IMG/VR virus record: IMGVR_UViG_3300009152_000195
Span: 1 to 24,654 of that record
Direction: 5' to 3' (one strand)
From: a virus
Length of the DNA: 24,654 nucleotides
Every line of letters begins with the position of its first letter. Positions within the stretch are counted from its first letter, which is position 1. Below the pieces are notes generated by a model. That model had not been told where the DNA came from. It searched no databases and saw only the letters and a list, made by a program, of their open reading frames with translations. A program made the translations under genes and the position numbers. Of this stretch, positions 15,630-24,141 are shown in pieces.

Positions 15630-16124
15630 TTAGTTGTTTGTCCAACCATATAAGTTACCGCGCGGGTGAACTGTAAACATACATTTAGCTTCGGCAGTTG
15701 GATTTGAATCAACTTTAAATTCACCAACTCGACCTACAAAAGCGTATGCAACATCAGCACCTAAACCATCAGTAGCAAGAACAACAAAAGTTCTGTCAAT
15801 AGTGCCATTGTAGGCATCAGTTCTCATTAATTGTAATTGTGTATCAGCAGGATTCCATGCCGCAGTAATTGTCATTGAAGTAGGGGCAGCTTGAGTAGGA
15901 ATCTTATCAGATTGACGAGCGCCTGCTACACCAAAAGATGCAACTGCATCATCTTGACCAAATGCTGGAACTGCTTCTACAGGAATTACATTTGAGCTAA
16001 TAGCAATTGCATTTACATCAGCCCATGTATTTAATTCTTCAAGTGTTAATGGTGTTGGATTTGCGCCATCTTGAGCGTAAAGGGTTGCGCTAAACCCAGG
16101 TAAAACTTTATTTGGAAGTGCCAT
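15630..16124 (-). CDS. Major tail tube protein
   Basis: A 164-residue protein with the size, beta-rich pattern and position of siphovirus tail tube proteins. It begins MALPNKVLPGFSATLYAQDG, has PVEAVPAFGQDDAVASFG in the middle, then MTITAAWNPADTQLQLMRTD and ends FTVHPRGNLYGWTNN. Stacked hexameric rings of such proteins form the tail channel. It follows the putative tail terminator with a good ribosome binding site (AAAAGGAAATTTAATT-ATG) and precedes the gp10-like and chaperone genes. There is no Ig-like C-terminal extension of the kind seen in lambda V. It should be among the most abundant virion proteins. Confidence 0.75.
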   Translation of the reverse strand: MALPNKVLPGFSATLYAQDGANPTPLTLEELNTWADVNAIAISSNVIPVEAVPAFGQDDAVASFGVAGARQSDKIPTQAAPTSMTITAAWNPADTQLQLMRTDAYNGTIDRTFVVLATDGLGADVAYAFVGRVGEFKVDSNPTAEAKCMFTVHPRGNLYGWTNN

Positions 16125-16932: not shown

Positions 16933-17601
16933 TTACATCACCAATGGTTTATAAGGTCTTAAAAGTGCATCCACTCCGTAAGGTATATTTTGTAACTTGC
17001 TTAAAGTTGTTTCTGATCTATTGTTATAAAGATGAGTTAATAACAATAAAGCCGCTTGTTTGATAACAGGATAAGCCTGTAAGAAATTAGGATTAACTGT
17101 ATATTCAATAACAATAGGTGAGGTTACAACTGTATTAACATCGCTAGGCATTCCGCCTGGCAATATTACTTTGTTACCTGTTGGATCATAAACATAAGCA
17201 GAAGTAGCTAAAGTTGTAATAACTACAGGATTAGCATTGTTGTAATATTTAACACTATTAATAACAACGCCACCCGTATTAAAACTATCTTTATAAGATA
17301 CTTCAGGCAAATCTAAACAAACAGGATTAGCATACAAAGAACCAAGACCATAATAAGAACGATATGAAACAGGGAATATAGGCATACCAAGATAATCCTC
17401 AATGTGCATACGAACCGCTAATTCTAAACCTTCTAAATAAGAATCTTGTGATTCATCACCAAACAAATTTAATTGATTAGTGATTTCCTCTAATGTTAGC
17501 CAACTTGTTGTTAATGCACGATTGATTTGTTCAAACTTATCATAGTTGAACGGATTTCTAGTGCCACCACCAAATGGTATTTGTCCTAAAGTATCAGCCA
17601 T
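16933..17601 (-). CDS. Head-tail connector protein, HK97 gp6-like
   Basis: A 222-residue connector (adaptor) that forms a ring below the portal. The N-terminal helices (SWLTLEEITNQLNLFGD, then LEGLELAVRMHIEDYLGMPI) match the gp6/gp15-type 'position and length' pattern, with 'VRMHIEDYLG' the usual helix-to-strand turn. The middle is beta-rich. The C-terminus ends IKQAALLLLTHLYNNRSET, then LQNIPYGVDALLRPYKPLVM, which strongly resembles HK97 gp6 (a helix followed by 'P-x-G-V-x-A-L-L-x-P-Y'). It is slightly longer than many gp6 proteins because of a middle insertion. It follows the second capsid paralogue and precedes the closure gene. Confidence 0.85.
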   Translation of the reverse strand: MADTLGQIPFGGGTRNPFNYDKFEQINRALTTSWLTLEEITNQLNLFGDESQDSYLEGLELAVRMHIEDYLGMPIFPVSYRSYYGLGSLYANPVCLDLPEVSYKDSFNTGGVVINSVKYYNNANPVVITTLATSAYVYDPTGNKVILPGGMPSDVNTVVTSPIVIEYTVNPNFLQAYPVIKQAALLLLTHLYNNRSETTLSKLQNIPYGVDALLRPYKPLVM

Positions 17602-17603
17602 AA

Positions 17604-18668
17604 TTAACTCGCGTAAATAAACACACCAGCACTAGGATTTCTAACTGTAGAAACTACACGCTTTTCAGCATATAAAGTTACAAAGCCAGGTTTGGTTTGG
17701 TCGTAGCGTTTTAATGTCATTTCTTCATTGTCAGCAATAGTCATAAACTGATCCCAACAAGCTAAAGTTCCCATAAATGCACCAGCGCCAGCAGTTTGGA
17801 AATAAGAGTTAGGAATGACAGGAATGCCAAATAAATATAACAATGCTCCGCCATCTTTATCACCAACTTCTAAAAGCAATGGTAAACCACCTGTTGCAGT
17901 CATTAATCTTAATTTAGCAATAAGACTTGGGTGCATCATCCATGCAGTTGAAGGTAAATACCAATATTGTGCAGGAAGTTTATTTAAAGTATTAACTAAA
18001 TCTTCATAAGTTGGAGCAGTTGGACTAAATGCTTCATAAATTACTGTATGAAGTCCGTTAGTAATTGCAGTTCCGCTTGATCCGTATGAAGCCGCACTTG
18101 TGCTTCCAGGATATGTAATCAATCCTCGAACGCCATTAGTTGCGCCTGTAGTATAAGTTGTTGAGCCAGCTTGATCGACATTTAAAACCATAGCTGAAGC
18201 TTCTGCTTGAGAAAATTCAAGTATTAAATCGCTAACAATTGTTTCATCAATATTATTAATATCAGATAATAATGCAGTTCTTAATGGTAATTGTGCTGAT
18301 AAATTTCTTGTAGGTAATTGCCAAATTGAAGTAGCAATTCCTGGAGTGCCGTCATTAGGTGTAAATGTATAACCCCATGGATTATTAGGGCTTACTTGAT
18401 TTAAAACATTCCCTGTTTTAGCAACAAATTGAGCCGCTGAACCTGTAAAAGTTACCTCGCGCGCCCATCCTCTAAACGGATTTGCTAAACGGAGTGCCGC
18501 AAAAGCATCATCAAAATAAGTTCTTCCGCCTTTGTCTAGTCCGCTACCTGTAAGTTGAGATGCTTCATTTACATCTTGTTGGGCTTCTTTTTTTACAAGA
18601 TTAACTGTAGCTTTACCTTCAGTTAGTGCTTGTTTTATGCCATTTAAAATTCTTTCAGATGTATTCAT
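17604..18668 (-). CDS. Second major capsid protein paralogue (HK97 fold, short delta region)
   Basis: A 354-residue HK97-fold capsid protein that is a clear paralogue of the gene just upstream. Shared stretches include GGRTYFDDAFAALRLANPFRG (47-67) against GGRTAYDPVFFALRLANPMRG, the IWQL strand (115), LRTALLSDI (129-137) against IRTAALDDI, LILEFSQAEA (148-157) against MLLEFSQQEA, LPAQYW (231-236) against LPQQYW, and KRYDQTKPGFVTLYAEKR (320-337) against RRYDQTLPGYITFYGEKR. Its leader before the GGRT element is only about 46 residues, against about 129 in the other copy, so it lacks most of the coiled-coil delta domain. The ribosome binding site (TAGGAAAG) lies right after the T-run of the preceding hairpin. 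It may be a minor capsid, vertex or second major subunit. That it is structural is near certain; which role is open. Confidence 0.85.
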   Translation of the reverse strand: MNTSERILNGIKQALTEGKATVNLVKKEAQQDVNEASQLTGSGLDKGGRTYFDDAFAALRLANPFRGWAREVTFTGSAAQFVAKTGNVLNQVSPNNPWGYTFTPNDGTPGIATSIWQLPTRNLSAQLPLRTALLSDINNIDETIVSDLILEFSQAEASAMVLNVDQAGSTTYTTGATNGVRGLITYPGSTSAASYGSSGTAITNGLHTVIYEAFSPTAPTYEDLVNTLNKLPAQYWYLPSTAWMMHPSLIAKLRLMTATGGLPLLLEVGDKDGGALLYLFGIPVIPNSYFQTAGAGAFMGTLACWDQFMTIADNEEMTLKRYDQTKPGFVTLYAEKRVVSTVRNPSAGVFIYAS

Positions 18669-18679
18669 TTTTCTTTCCT

Positions 18680-18710
18680 AAAAAATTAGAGAGAGGGGGA
18701 TTGCTCCCCC
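18680..18710 (-). terminator. Hairpin with T-run between the two capsid genes (attenuator or weak terminator)
   Basis: On the minus strand, GGGGGA-GCAA-TCCCCC (18710-18695) forms a perfect 6-bp stem with a 4-nt loop, then TCTCTCTAA and TTTTTT (18685-18680). The 9-nt gap before the T-run is unusual for a canonical intrinsic terminator. It may reduce read-through into the second capsid gene or act as an mRNA-stabilising hairpin or processing site. It is the only hairpin of this kind I noticed between genes in the head region. Confidence 0.6.
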
Positions 18711-18732
18711 ACCCTGAACAACAAATTTAGAA

Positions 18733-20166
18733 TTAATCTAAATATTGTGCTGATCTATAACGAATGATACTGAATGGATCGACCACAGATGTTGCTAGAC
18801 GCTTCTCACCATAGAATGTGATATAGCCTGGCAATGTTTGGTCGTATCTACGCATAACCATATTTAAACGATCAACGATTGTATGACCGCGATTCCAATC
18901 ACCAAAGTAAATTGGGAAAGCGTTTGTATCTACTGAAGGACTTGGTGTAGTAGGAATAAGTGGGTTAGAAACATACTTATTAACTACAACATCAAAACCA
19001 AGTAAAGTGCCAACAATGCCGTCATCTCTTGATAAGCCGTCAATGTAAATTGGGCGACCATTGTCATCAACTAAACCGCGAATTGCTGCAAGCATTAGTG
19101 GATTGATAACAAATTTAGCAGTTGGTGTCCAATATTGTTGTGGTAAAGCATAGATGAAATTCACAATGTCTTTATATTGAACATTGTTAAATAGACCTAC
19201 ACCATTACCAGCACCTTCAGCATCAGAGCCATTAGGAATCAATTGGTCATAAGTAGCGATTGAATGTAAACCGCTTGATGAGCTTGTTCCTGTAGAACCA
19301 AATGCCGCAGTTGTTGTTTGACCACCAGCGTATGTGCCAGCCGCACCAGCATATTGATTAAGACCGCGTAAGCCGTCAGAACCGCCATAAGGTGTTGTGT
19401 TATCACCAACTGAAACCTCAACTTGATCGTTGTTTTGAATCATTGAAAGAGCTTCTTGTTGTGAGAATTCTAACAACATATCTGCTACAACATTTGATTC
19501 TAAACCATCGATATCATCAAGAGCAGCAGTTCTAATTGGGAATTGAACATTCAAATCTTGCAATGTTAATTGCCAAATGTTTGTATCCAAGCTATTTGGG
19601 TTTGGATGTGGGCTAGATGTGTTGTTATTAATACCATAACCCCACCAAGCGCCTGTGTTACCTGTTTTTGCTCTGAATTGGTAAGTAGCACCATCAGTTG
19701 CAACAGAACGAGATACACCACGCATTGGGTTAGCAAGTCTTAATGCAAAGAATACAGGATCATAAGCAGTTCTACCGCCCACGCCTGCACCACCACCAAT
19801 ACCAGCTGGGTTACCAATTGATGAAGCTTCTTTCATATAAGCATCATATTGACCAGCATCTTCGAACATTTTAAGTTCTTTTTCAACTTTCATACCGCTT
19901 TCATAGAAGCCTTTTAATTGTTCTTTAACAGAACGATTAACTTCTTGAGCAACAGTTTTGTAAGTTTTGATTAATGGAGTAGCTTCTTTGATTGAAGCAA
20001 CTTTAGCTTCAAGAGATGCAACTTTTTCTTCAAATGTTACTGCTTTTTCTTCAAAAGCTTTTGTAGCTTCCGCTAATTTAGCATCAACTTCAGTCTTAAC
20101 AGATTCAACTGCTTCAACTTGAGCTTGCTCAATAGCGTCTAACTTTTCGATAATTTTATCTGACAT
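18733..20166 (-). CDS. Major capsid protein (HK97 fold, with N-terminal delta/scaffold domain)
   Basis: A 477-residue capsid protein. Residues about 1-100 form a long charged coiled coil (KIIEKLDAIEQAQVEAVESV, then repeats of EEKAVTFEEKVASLEAKV). This is the delta domain that acts as internal scaffold and is normally removed by the prohead protease. A glycine-rich linker (NPAGIGGGAGVGGRT, about 119-133) probably contains the cut region. The folded shell domain follows (ALRLANPMRGVSRSV, IRTAALDDIDGLESNVVADMLLEFSQQEA, LPQQYWTPTAKFVINP, RRYDQTLPGYITFYGEKRL). The protease gene lies directly upstream, 3 nt away, with a good ribosome binding site (AAAGGATAAATC). By order and delta domain this should be the principal shell protein; the next gene is a paralogue. 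Confidence 0.9.
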   Translation of the reverse strand: MSDKIIEKLDAIEQAQVEAVESVKTEVDAKLAEATKAFEEKAVTFEEKVASLEAKVASIKEATPLIKTYKTVAQEVNRSVKEQLKGFYESGMKVEKELKMFEDAGQYDAYMKEASSIGNPAGIGGGAGVGGRTAYDPVFFALRLANPMRGVSRSVATDGATYQFRAKTGNTGAWWGYGINNNTSSPHPNPNSLDTNIWQLTLQDLNVQFPIRTAALDDIDGLESNVVADMLLEFSQQEALSMIQNNDQVEVSVGDNTTPYGGSDGLRGLNQYAGAAGTYAGGQTTTAAFGSTGTSSSSGLHSIATYDQLIPNGSDAEGAGNGVGLFNNVQYKDIVNFIYALPQQYWTPTAKFVINPLMLAAIRGLVDDNGRPIYIDGLSRDDGIVGTLLGFDVVVNKYVSNPLIPTTPSPSVDTNAFPIYFGDWNRGHTIVDRLNMVMRRYDQTLPGYITFYGEKRLATSVVDPFSIIRYRSAQYLD

Positions 20167-20169
20167 GAT

Positions 20170-20961
20170 TTATCCTTTAAGACGATTATTTAAAATTTTA
20201 AGCAATTCTCTTTCCGCAAAAGCGTTAAGAATTTTTTGCTCATCTACCACCGCATCAGCATCACTCTGAATAGGTGCTTTTTCATCAATGATTTTAGGCT
20301 CATCACGAGTTTCTATAACCTTTTTGAAAATTGAAGACGCGGTGGTCGCATCTTTTCTTGAAAGTTTTGCATCACGCAATGCTTTCTCGATTAGTTTTAA
20401 GTCTAAAGAACCATCAGCTCTAAAGCACTCTAATTTCGAGATATTGCATTCTAAATTGTTAGGTTGCATAACAATTGATACTTCTCTTAAACCGCCTTTA
20501 GTAATTTGGAAGAAACCATCTTCATCAGCGCCTACTTCCATACCTTCAGCATCAACCATTGCATATTCATCAGCATAAGCGCCAACAGATACACCGCCAA
20601 CCATAGCTGGACTTTCTTTCATAATAGTATATAAGTCTTTACCAGCCGTTGTATTAGTAAACAAACGACCTTTTGCATCCATACCTTCATCAGTAAATGA
20701 AAACTCTTGCCATTCACCTACAGGCATTGACATATCATTGTGTTGAAAATACATTGGAAGGGGTTTACCTGATTTTGCGAATTCATCCGCCCATTGAGCA
20801 AAGCCTTCAGCTTTATAATTAAATTTACGACCATCAGCACCTTCGCGAGCGCCCCAAGTCGTTACAGTAGCTTCAATTTCGCCACTACCGCCTTCAGCTT
20901 CATCGGCTTTGACACCTAGAGCAACTTTTGATTCAAATAGAAACTTAATATCTTTAGTCAT
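20170..20961 (-). CDS. Prohead (HK97 gp4-like, U35) serine protease
   Basis: A 263-residue maturation protease that removes the delta domain from the capsid protein during prohead maturation. Likely catalytic residues are His74 in MYFQHNDMSMPVGEW and Ser125 in GGVSVGA, with Glu160 in LREVSIVMQP as the family's third position. The N-terminal strand (IEATVTTWGAREG) and the 'DAKGRLF' turn are typical. The C-terminal part (about 175-263) is charged and helical (LDLKLIEKALRDAKLSRKDA, then LNAFAERELLKILNNRL) and probably works as an assembly tether. GGGAG lies 9 nt before the ATG, inside the end of the 36-residue gene, which overlaps by 8 nt. The family call is strong. Confidence 0.9.
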   Translation of the reverse strand: MTKDIKFLFESKVALGVKADEAEGGSGEIEATVTTWGAREGADGRKFNYKAEGFAQWADEFAKSGKPLPMYFQHNDMSMPVGEWQEFSFTDEGMDAKGRLFTNTTAGKDLYTIMKESPAMVGGVSVGAYADEYAMVDAEGMEVGADEDGFFQITKGGLREVSIVMQPNNLECNISKLECFRADGSLDLKLIEKALRDAKLSRKDATTASSIFKKVIETRDEPKIIDEKAPIQSDADAVVDEQKILNAFAERELLKILNNRLKG

Positions 20962-21064
20962 TTATTGGAACTCCCTTTGATTTCATCCCGTTAGTTTCAA
21001 CAGGTTTAGGTTTGCGCTTTTTAGCCTGTTGGGTTAATTTGTTGAGCAACTCTTTTAATGTCAT
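20954..21064 (-). CDS. 36-residue coupled mini-protein between portal and protease
   Basis: A short gene of 36 codons (MTLKELLNKLTQQAKKRKPKP, then a 15-residue tail ending GVPIND). It starts in a TAATG overlap with the portal stop and ends by overlapping the protease ATG by 8 nt, so it bridges the two genes without leaving a gap. The first 18 residues can form a basic amphipathic helix (Leu3, Leu6, Leu7, Leu10, with a KKRK cluster at 15-18). I recognise no family. The coupling and lack of spare DNA support translation, but a short open frame cannot be proven by eye. It might be an assembly factor, a portal or scaffold accessory, or just a translational relay to the protease. Confidence 0.5.
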   Translation of the reverse strand: MTLKELLNKLTQQAKKRKPKPVETNGMKSKGVPIND

Positions 21065-22473
21065 TAGGCTTTACCTGCCTGACCTGTTTTGCCAACGCTA
21101 GAAGTATTGCCACCGCCACCTGTATCTTGAGGTGTAGTGCCACTTATAGGTTTAGCTTGTTTTGATGTATCTTTTAATTCGTCTGCGCCTTGCAAGTTTT
21201 GTTTGCCTAGATATTCTCGCGCTTCATTAGGTGTCATTATACCACTATTCACACCTGCTACTGCGTAATTCATTTGATCTAGTGGTGCGCCTTTTAAAAA
21301 ATCTTCAGTTTGGAATTGAATACAAAGATTTGGATAACCAGCAAGAAGACTTGCTTTAAATTTTTGTTCAATATTAGTAATTAACGGACACATTGTTGAT
21401 TTATAGAATTCATCAAGCATTGTTTGTGTATTGTTATACTTTTGATCTGCAATTCCAAGCATAGCAGGTGGCACTCCAAACAATCCGCAAATACGCTTCA
21501 TAGTTTGTTCTTTTAATGCTCTTGCATCCGCATCTTGAAGTGTAAGCATATTGAGTGGCATATATTTCATGCCATTATCTAATAACATGCCTTGACCTGG
21601 TTTAGATAGATCAGTAGAGCGAGAACCTGTTAAAGATGTCCAAGCTTCTTTAAGTCTTGCGGCAATTTCTTTAAATTTAGCATCAGGAATTACTTGGTCT
21701 GTAACAAACATACCTGAAGGTTTAGCTCCATTAAGCATAATAAAGTTTGCATAAAGATCAATATCTTGATCTAAAGATACTAATTCGTTACACAAAATAC
21801 CTTTATTAAAACCAGCACTACCTTGCCAAGCCATTTCACTTGCATGAATAACTTGGAAATATTCTAATGGTTCATCTTTATTAAAACCATAAGTGCTAGT
21901 CGATAATCTATAAGTAGGATAACGAGTAGGAGTGATTTGAGCGGTTATTAAAGTTGAATCCAATAGATACATTTCCATTGGTGTTAGCGTAGAGTTTGTT
22001 TGCTCTTTGCGCCATAAAGCAGTAAATGTTTCACCTGATAAGTCATACCACATTGACCATTGATACCAAAATTCGTATGCAGATTGATAATTATTAGGAT
22101 TAGTTAATAAGTTATAAACTGCTTTAGCTTTAGCTTTATCGCGAGTTGAAACATTTGAATCTGTTACCGCATCTACTAATTTACCATCATCGCCATAAGC
22201 CATGATTTTAATGGGCAATTGAGCTAATGCACGAGCTTTAGCATTGACACAAGCCATAACAGTAGAGTTACGGGATAGTGTGGACATATCCAATACTCGA
22301 CCTGCGGTATTAACGGATGATGTCGTTACATATAATAATTGATTAGAAGATTGAACTCCTTGAGCTTTAACATTGCGGAGTATGTTGTTACCGAGGGCAG
22401 TTTGACCAAAAAGAGTATTACTTTCTTGCGCGTTTTGATTTGGTTTTCTTTTGAATATATCTAGTATAGCCAT
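21064..22473 (-). CDS. Portal protein, HK97-type
   Basis: A 469-residue portal that forms the dodecameric DNA entry ring at one capsid vertex. The N-terminus is MAILDIFKRKPNQNAQ, typical of this family, then STLSRNSTVMACVNAKARALAQLPIKI (about 62-90), the usual 'V-x-x-C-V-x-x-x-A-x-x-x-A-x-L-P' helix. The middle has FWYQWSMWYDLSGETFTALWR, and FGVPPAMLGIADQKYNNTQTMLDEFYKSTMCPLI (about 325-358) matches the family's 'P-P-x-M-L-G' and helix. The C-terminal tail (420-469) is disordered and Gly-rich (TTPQDTGGGGNTSS). The ribosome binding site is AAAGGAAAAAC-ATG, and the start lies 9 nt after the large terminase stop. Confidence 0.9.
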   Translation of the reverse strand: MAILDIFKRKPNQNAQESNTLFGQTALGNNILRNVKAQGVQSSNQLLYVTTSSVNTAGRVLDMSTLSRNSTVMACVNAKARALAQLPIKIMAYGDDGKLVDAVTDSNVSTRDKAKAKAVYNLLTNPNNYQSAYEFWYQWSMWYDLSGETFTALWRKEQTNSTLTPMEMYLLDSTLITAQITPTRYPTYRLSTSTYGFNKDEPLEYFQVIHASEMAWQGSAGFNKGILCNELVSLDQDIDLYANFIMLNGAKPSGMFVTDQVIPDAKFKEIAARLKEAWTSLTGSRSTDLSKPGQGMLLDNGMKYMPLNMLTLQDADARALKEQTMKRICGLFGVPPAMLGIADQKYNNTQTMLDEFYKSTMCPLITNIEQKFKASLLAGYPNLCIQFQTEDFLKGAPLDQMNYAVAGVNSGIMTPNEAREYLGKQNLQGADELKDTSKQAKPISGTTPQDTGGGGNTSSVGKTGQAGKA

Positions 22474-22482
22474 GTTTTTCCT

Positions 22483-24141
22483 TTATATGCTTCTAAATCC
22501 AAATGATGTAGAAACCAATGGATGATCTAGTGAGCAGTGCATCGCAATAATAAGCGCTATTATACCATCAACCTTGGCTGACTTATCTGCTTCATTCTTG
22601 CGAATTTTAATATTGCCATTGACATCGGTATAAACTTCACAGTTACCTAATTGCCAACCCACAAATGGATTTCCATTGTGTTTGATAGCGTTTTGCATGA
22701 TGAGCTTTTCAACATGCTTGGATGGGTTATTTAAAACCGCCATGCCTTGTCCAACTTTTTTAACAGGGATACTATTATCGTGTAGTCGAGCAACTAAAGA
22801 AGCCGCATTGTAAGCGTCATAGCCTACTTCTTTAACATTGTATAAAGTAGCTTGTTGTTTTATATATTCGGAAATCTCTCGATCATCCATAACATTGCCT
22901 TCTGTGATATGCAATATTTTAGATTGAACGGCTTGGTCAAATATACCACGATAATGAGTTGGAATCAAGGATAACGCTTCTTCAGGCAAAAAGAATTTGA
23001 AATCAGCATAATAATCTTCGGAAGCATATCGTTTTAAAGTGCAAACTGCATTTAAGTCGCGAGTTGCCGCCAAGTCAAATCCAATAAACACTTCTTCAGG
23101 ATCAGCTTTATCTTCGCCTATAGACTTATCCCAATAATCGCGATCAATCCATGCAGTGTTAGCGGATACATATACATTAAGAGTTTTGCAAAGAAATTCA
23201 TTTAATGCTGGTGGTTTAAGTTTAGCTTGTTCGCATCGTTCTTTAATAGCTTCTTGATAAACTGATATGCCGTGCATAGGATTAGCTTTAGCCCAAGTTG
23301 TTTCATCTTTCCAATTGTCTTGCGGATCAAGTCCATATAACAAACCAAACCAATGAGGATTGTCAGGAGCATCGCCATTAAGCATTGTTTCAAGCGCAGT
23401 TAAGTCTTCAAAAAACTTTGTATCTTTAGTAAATGATGCGGTAGTAATATAAATTCTTAAAGGATTCTTTCGGGCAACCATGCCTGAAAATATAACCTCA
23501 ATAGAGTTACGATCAATAATCTGTGCGGCTTCATCTATAATGGCGCAACTTGCATTCTTACCATCGCCTGATTTTTTATTGTCGCGAGATAAAGCGCGGA
23601 ACATAGTTTGACTATCATTAGCTTTGCCAATCTCATATTTGCTTACTCGATACCATGCTTTAATTTCATCAGGCATAGATTCAACCATTGAGCGAGCCGC
23701 ATCAAAAACAATAGTTGCTTGTTCTCTATTAGTTGCAAGTGTAAAGACTTCAGCACCAGCTTCATTGAATGCTAATTCATATAAACCTATAACTGCGGTA
23801 AGAGTTGATTTGCCAGCTTTGCGAGGAATGAAAACAATGACATCGGTGGTCATTCTTTTTTCATGGTCTTTCTTATGGCGAAAACCATAGATACCACAAA
23901 TAAGTAAAACTTGGAAAGGTTCAAGGACTATTGGCTTTCCAGCATCAGGTCCTTTGGTGTGTTTAAGAACAGATACAAAATCTAATACATGCTCAACATA
24001 TTCAGGAAAGAACTCATATTCCCAATGCTTGTCTTCCATAAAATTGAGGAAACGCTGACATGCTAATTTTATATTATTGCAAACTTCAATATTGCCCTTA
24101 ACTACATCTTGAGCATATTGAACACCTATAAGAAAACTCAT
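22483..24141 (-). CDS. Terminase large subunit (Terminase_1/HK97-like)
   Basis: A 552-residue packaging motor. The N-terminal ATPase has a Walker A motif PRKAGKST (106-113), preceded by a strand (DVIVFI), and a Walker B motif AIIDEAAQ (200-207, with Asp203 and Glu204). YITTAS (231-236) is the coupling motif. The C-terminal nuclease shows GFDLAATRDLNAV (354-366, Asp355), VGYDAYNAASLV (439-450, Asp442) and the late acidic KVDGIIALI (523-531, Asp525), as expected for an RNase H-like metal site. It cuts concatemeric DNA and pumps it into the prohead. The start overlaps the small subunit stop (ATGA), so the two are translationally coupled. Confidence 0.95.
   Translation of the reverse strand: MSFLIGVQYAQDVVKGNIEVCNNIKLACQRFLNFMEDKHWEYEFFPEYVEHVLDFVSVLKHTKGPDAGKPIVLEPFQVLLICGIYGFRHKKDHEKRMTTDVIVFIPRKAGKSTLTAVIGLYELAFNEAGAEVFTLATNREQATIVFDAARSMVESMPDEIKAWYRVSKYEIGKANDSQTMFRALSRDNKKSGDGKNASCAIIDEAAQIIDRNSIEVIFSGMVARKNPLRIYITTASFTKDTKFFEDLTALETMLNGDAPDNPHWFGLLYGLDPQDNWKDETTWAKANPMHGISVYQEAIKERCEQAKLKPPALNEFLCKTLNVYVSANTAWIDRDYWDKSIGEDKADPEEVFIGFDLAATRDLNAVCTLKRYASEDYYADFKFFLPEEALSLIPTHYRGIFDQAVQSKILHITEGNVMDDREISEYIKQQATLYNVKEVGYDAYNAASLVARLHDNSIPVKKVGQGMAVLNNPSKHVEKLIMQNAIKHNGNPFVGWQLGNCEVYTDVNGNIKIRKNEADKSAKVDGIIALIIAMHCSLDHPLVSTSFGFRSI

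Follow-up and report, generated by a model that had tools for sequence, protein, structure and literature searches.

Tandem HK97-fold capsid paralogues in a lineage of small-genome tailed phages, with a proposed vertex role for the shorter copy

In most well-studied HK97-type phages, one protein occupies both the five-fold and the six-fold positions of the shell (PMC9958956). The viral contig IMGVR_UViG_3300009152_000195 (the window, analysed over its full 24,654 nucleotides) carries two adjacent capsid-type genes, encoding proteins of 477 and 354 residues (LONG and SHORT), and raises the question of what part a second capsid protein could play in a tailed phage. An earlier note, made from the nucleotide letters, had read the two as capsid proteins that arose by duplication next to a U35 protease. 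Both reading frames lie exactly where that note placed them (Table 1), and the neighbouring protease gene matches PF04586 (Peptidase_S78), which we take to be the family once named U35. By Pfam and PHROG matches, the operon runs in the order terminase, portal, S78 protease, LONG, SHORT, head-tail adaptor.

Table 1. Features of the capsid locus, in window coordinates
Feature	Position	Strand	Basis
Terminase large subunit	22483..24141	-	PF20441 + PF03354
Portal protein	21064..22473	-	PF04860, 200.9 bits
Prohead protease (Peptidase_S78)	20170..20961	-	PF04586, 37.5 bits (cut-off 21)
LONG, 477-aa HK97-fold major capsid protein with delta-type N-terminal extension	18733..20166	-	PF05065, 96.6 bits; PHROG 10
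LONG N-terminal extension, residues 1 to ~128 (boundary approximate)	19783..20166	-	Alignment with SHORT; predicted helices
Terminator-like hairpin in the LONG-SHORT gap, with GGGGGAGCAATCCCCC core and T-rich tail	18679..18714	-	Equivalent in 215/225 loci
SHORT, 354-aa HK97-fold capsid paralogue, proposed vertex (penton) subunit	17604..18668	-	PF05065, 60.8 bits; PHROG 10
SHORT N-terminal extension, residues 1 to ~46, one predicted helix (3-17)	18531..18668	-	Alignment; model
Head-tail adaptor, next gene after SHORT	16933..17601	-	PHROG 40 + 442; PF05135, 25.8 bits

The paralogy of the two proteins is borne out by direct comparison. BLASTP of the pair gave 34% identity over 340 columns (179 bits, E 2e-56), so the similarity is not due to chance; both proteins also pass the cut-off of 24.2 bits for Phage_capsid (PF05065), and the PHROG family matched by both is annotated 'major head protein'. 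The motifs quoted in the earlier note (GGRT, ALRLANP-RG, LEFSQ-EA, LP-QYW and RYDQT-PG) are all present. In an alignment of relatives, the LONG and SHORT groups have the same residue at 57 columns, with a conservation of 90% or more in each group, and 11 columns are conserved within each group but differ between them.

A structural model of SHORT (mean pLDDT 70) is predicted to adopt the HK97 fold across the shell domain. Its best Foldseek match is the capsid protein of RcGTA (E 6.6e-18), with two structural matches to this capsid (Z 22.6 and 22.1, with 261 residues at rmsd 8.6 and 256 at rmsd 4.7, respectively) and one to the HK97 prohead (Z 18.4, with 247 residues at rmsd 3.7). The structure-based search that the earlier note had proposed for challenging its reading thus places SHORT inside the capsid fold. 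Outside its N-terminal helices and a portion of the C-terminal half, the LONG model is poor, too poor for comparing interfaces; the fold of LONG was assigned from sequence (PF05065 and an RcGTA capsid profile match, E 5.7e-9). By profile and by fold, the RcGTA capsid (Rcc01687) is the closest solved relative of both proteins. Unlike the present phage, RcGTA has no second capsid gene, and its single capsid protein forms pentamers and hexamers, adopting bent forms in the pentamers (PMC7296036); a vertex protein is therefore not required by the fold.

The only phage-collection record with a relative of SHORT is Methylophilaceae phage P19250A (KX815270; 38.7 kb), an isolate from a lake bacterium whose genome was reportedly described by Moon et al. 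in 2017. Its tandem (P19250A_0005 and P19250A_0006; 77% identical to LONG and 65% to SHORT by tblastn) has the same gene order and neighbours as the window, and its SHORT is annotated as a hypothetical protein, for which no report of a role was found in the literature searched. The pair is common in IMG/VR, where a single query returned at least 592 relatives. Exactly one LONG and one SHORT were present in all 165 informative family loci, defined as those reaching from the protease or portal gene through to the adaptor; a contig was in some cases fetched more than once, and SHORT or LONG served as the query for most fetches, but the loci fetched with a LONG query, which are unbiased regarding SHORT, show the same pattern. 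The duplication is thus clade-wide, and since the tandem is present in the isolate genome and in every informative related contig, an assembly error, already doubted in the earlier note, is excluded. The only protease/portal-to-adaptor locus lacking SHORT belongs to an out-group Rhizobium phage (L159). Homologous capsid genes also follow the portal and protease genes in more distantly related phages, namely Azospirillum phage Cd, Rhizobium phage RHph_X2_25, Pseudomonas phage PARCL1pr and Desulfofustis phage LS06-2018-MD02, each of which has one capsid gene only, as checked near the match. The tandem is also carried by five contigs that are filed under bacterial or archaeal MAGs. A wide scan of bacterial genomes for the background rate of tandem PF05065 genes overlooked SHORT in one genome that does carry it. 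One of the tandem-bearing phage contigs (L154) is filed in an archaeal Candidatus Nitrosotalea MAG, probably through a binning error.

The transition from one capsid gene to two is strongly indicated, from sequence comparisons, to have been a single old duplication. LONG proteins share a mean identity of 69% among themselves and SHORT proteins 59%, and the two groups share 38% whether compared within one genome or between genomes, a pattern that does not suggest continuing gene conversion. A tree built from 69 proteins, none from T4, recovered LONG, SHORT and the single-capsid out-groups as one group each (support 82, 100 and 100), with LONG and SHORT joining before any of the tested out-groups, which were PHROG-10 relatives; the stem of SHORT (1.25 changes per column) is longer than that of LONG (0.32), and LONG is nearer than SHORT to the out-groups by profile scores. 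These features fit one duplication after which LONG kept the old role. Acquisition of SHORT from an unrelated phage is not favoured by the joining of the two groups before the out-groups, but this was a quick tree with long out-group branches and a support of only 82 for LONG, so that origin by duplication is likely rather than certain. Median dN/dS over 40 pairs was 0.10 for LONG and 0.09 for SHORT, and both genes are under purifying selection.

The two proteins differ at the N-terminus. LONG has its GGRT motif at residue 130 and SHORT at residue 47, which makes SHORT shorter by ~83 N-terminal residues, in keeping with the loss of about 80 suggested previously. The extension of LONG contains long predicted helices (2-61, 72-89 and 104-116) and is presumed to be a delta (scaffold) domain, which the S78 protease would presumably trim, perhaps along with the N-terminus of SHORT. 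Some relatives depart from this arrangement. Three loci (L106, L130 and L100) have an extra domain of ~100 aa that precedes SHORT in the same frame and is not separated from it by a stop; it matches PHROG 2859, of unknown function (E 5.6e-31), and may be fused to the SHORT N-terminus. In another locus (L133), the KTGNAT and NPWGY motifs of SHORT are separated by an insert of ~65 aa, which probably lies in the E-loop.

The two genes also appear to differ in expression. The gap between LONG and SHORT is mostly 40-80 bases, while the flanking genes in the window are tightly packed. A G+C-rich hairpin followed by a T-rich tail occupies this gap in 96% of loci, redundant contigs included (75 non-redundant loci are listed singly), compared with 0-9% at other junctions, and the 107 different stem sequences indicate that the structure has been kept while its sequence changed. 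An Rfam scan of the gap gave nothing near gathering scores, all matches falling far below them. The share of C-ending codons in five two-fold families is 0.474 in LONG, 0.345 in SHORT, where usage resembles that of the connector genes, and 0.27-0.38 in most other genes; it was lower in SHORT than in LONG in 97% of 176 loci. Codon bias and the conserved hairpin together point to production of LONG in larger amounts, LONG probably being the main building block and SHORT a subunit present in fewer copies; this evidence suggests a lower supply of SHORT and is silent on its location in the shell. An enlarged gap with extra sequence was seen in two loci (L141 and L143).

A major and a minor HK97-fold paralogue in one shell are already known as a kind. 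In phage T4, gp24 derives from gp23 and forms 11 pentamers, losing 10 residues on maturation compared with 65 in gp23 (PMC9958956). The T4 pair is the nearest working model for the present one: SHORT too is an HK97-fold paralogue of a major capsid protein, its reduced N-terminal extension would parallel the short propeptide of gp24, and its codon usage and the hairpin agree with a lower supply. T4 differs in its large prolate head, contractile tail, separate scaffold proteins and gp21 protease, whereas the present lineage has a genome of about 39 kb (P19250A), an S78 protease and a scaffold seemingly built into LONG. The analogy is one of function and implies no descent shared with gp24 after its split from gp23. 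On this analogy, there is about an even chance that SHORT is a dedicated penton subunit working like gp24. The ancestral capsid gene would have duplicated once, before the phage group diversified, with LONG retaining the ancestral role as the protein made in bulk that forms hexamers, its long helical extension acting as built-in scaffold. SHORT would have specialised as a lower-copy subunit with a cut-down N-terminus, joining proheads organised by the LONG extensions and forming the pentamers at all vertices except that of the portal; taking the head to be T=7, we infer about 360 copies of LONG and 55 of SHORT. A single S78 protease may trim both proteins near the shared EAS-L-TG...GGRT segment, and the putative terminator may reduce transcription of SHORT as well as of the connector and tail genes downstream. 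Such a dedicated pentamer subunit could remove the compromise of bending one protein for pentamers, as in RcGTA.

SHORT could instead be part of a two-component co-polymer, mixed with LONG in hexamers or making up a subset of capsomers, and tuning size, stability or surface. The capsid fold in both proteins and the 57 shared conserved columns agree with such a lattice, and Family 2B encapsulins (PDB 9bje and 9bix), both of which the SHORT model matches, build one shell from two HK97-fold proteins, although they are not phage heads and have no portal, protease or packaged genome. The codon bias and the hairpin favour unequal amounts of the two proteins, however, so that a vertex role fits better than an equal co-polymer, and we regard the co-polymer as unlikely.

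The same supply evidence raises the possibility that SHORT belongs to the portal vertex or neck, where it would surround or replace capsid subunits at the vertex that bears the tail, and aid attachment of the portal or adaptor, since SHORT shares its codon usage and its side of the terminator with the connector genes; it also lies directly before the adaptor gene. In the structures examined, such as that of JBD30 (PMC11445458), ordinary capsid hexamers ring the portal, and no precedent for such a subunit was found, which makes this role rather improbable. Slightly more improbable again is an assembly factor or outer-layer protein outside the lattice, with SHORT sizing or starting the prohead or replacing a decoration protein: the Desulfofustis phage does have a small 'capsid protein' gene in the slot of SHORT after its capsid gene, but a factor of this type would not obviously need a full capsid fold and strongly conserved shell motifs. 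A decaying or redundant duplicate, or an erroneously assembled tandem, has a negligible probability and was rejected on the universal retention of SHORT in informative loci, its low dN/dS and the complete isolate genome.

The vertex reading would extend a known kind of shell to a different type of phage. No description of such a capsid pair in a siphovirus was found in the literature searched, which was mostly open-access and not exhaustively covered, and the same search returned no clade-wide pair combining a ~39 kb genome, an S78 protease, a scaffold-like extension and a conserved terminator. Elsewhere, the 'vertex protein' band of phiCbK is the processed major capsid protein (PMC3556154), and the vertex protein of phAPEC6 is still to be identified (PMC7247149). 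It falls somewhat short of an even chance that, in small-genome tailed phages with a built-in scaffold, a vertex capsid protein evolved independently by duplication, convergent with gp24, its supply set by a lineage-conserved intergenic terminator. If so, a lineage with a cultured isolate, P19250A, would allow tests of why vertex proteins evolve and of how small a head can hold one. It would also put right how SHORT is annotated across a widespread group of phages, since SHORT can be called hypothetical or taken for another major capsid protein; such labels matter when capsid genes are used as markers or as predictors of head size.

Two further features of the operon were observed. The gap between portal and protease is occupied by a 36-aa open reading frame (MTLKELLNKLTQQAKKRKPKPVETNGMKSKGVPIND; window 20954-21064, minus strand), likely an unannotated small gene; small reading frames with an NGM..K.V motif are present at this gap in many relatives, and in one further locus a gap of 644 bases encodes a 171-aa protein resembling a homing endonuclease. 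A 164-aa protein without a family match (window 15630-16124, minus strand), perhaps a tail protein, is doubled in tandem (copies of ~164 and ~172 aa) in 30 of the 130 loci that were informative, including L019, L037 and L040.
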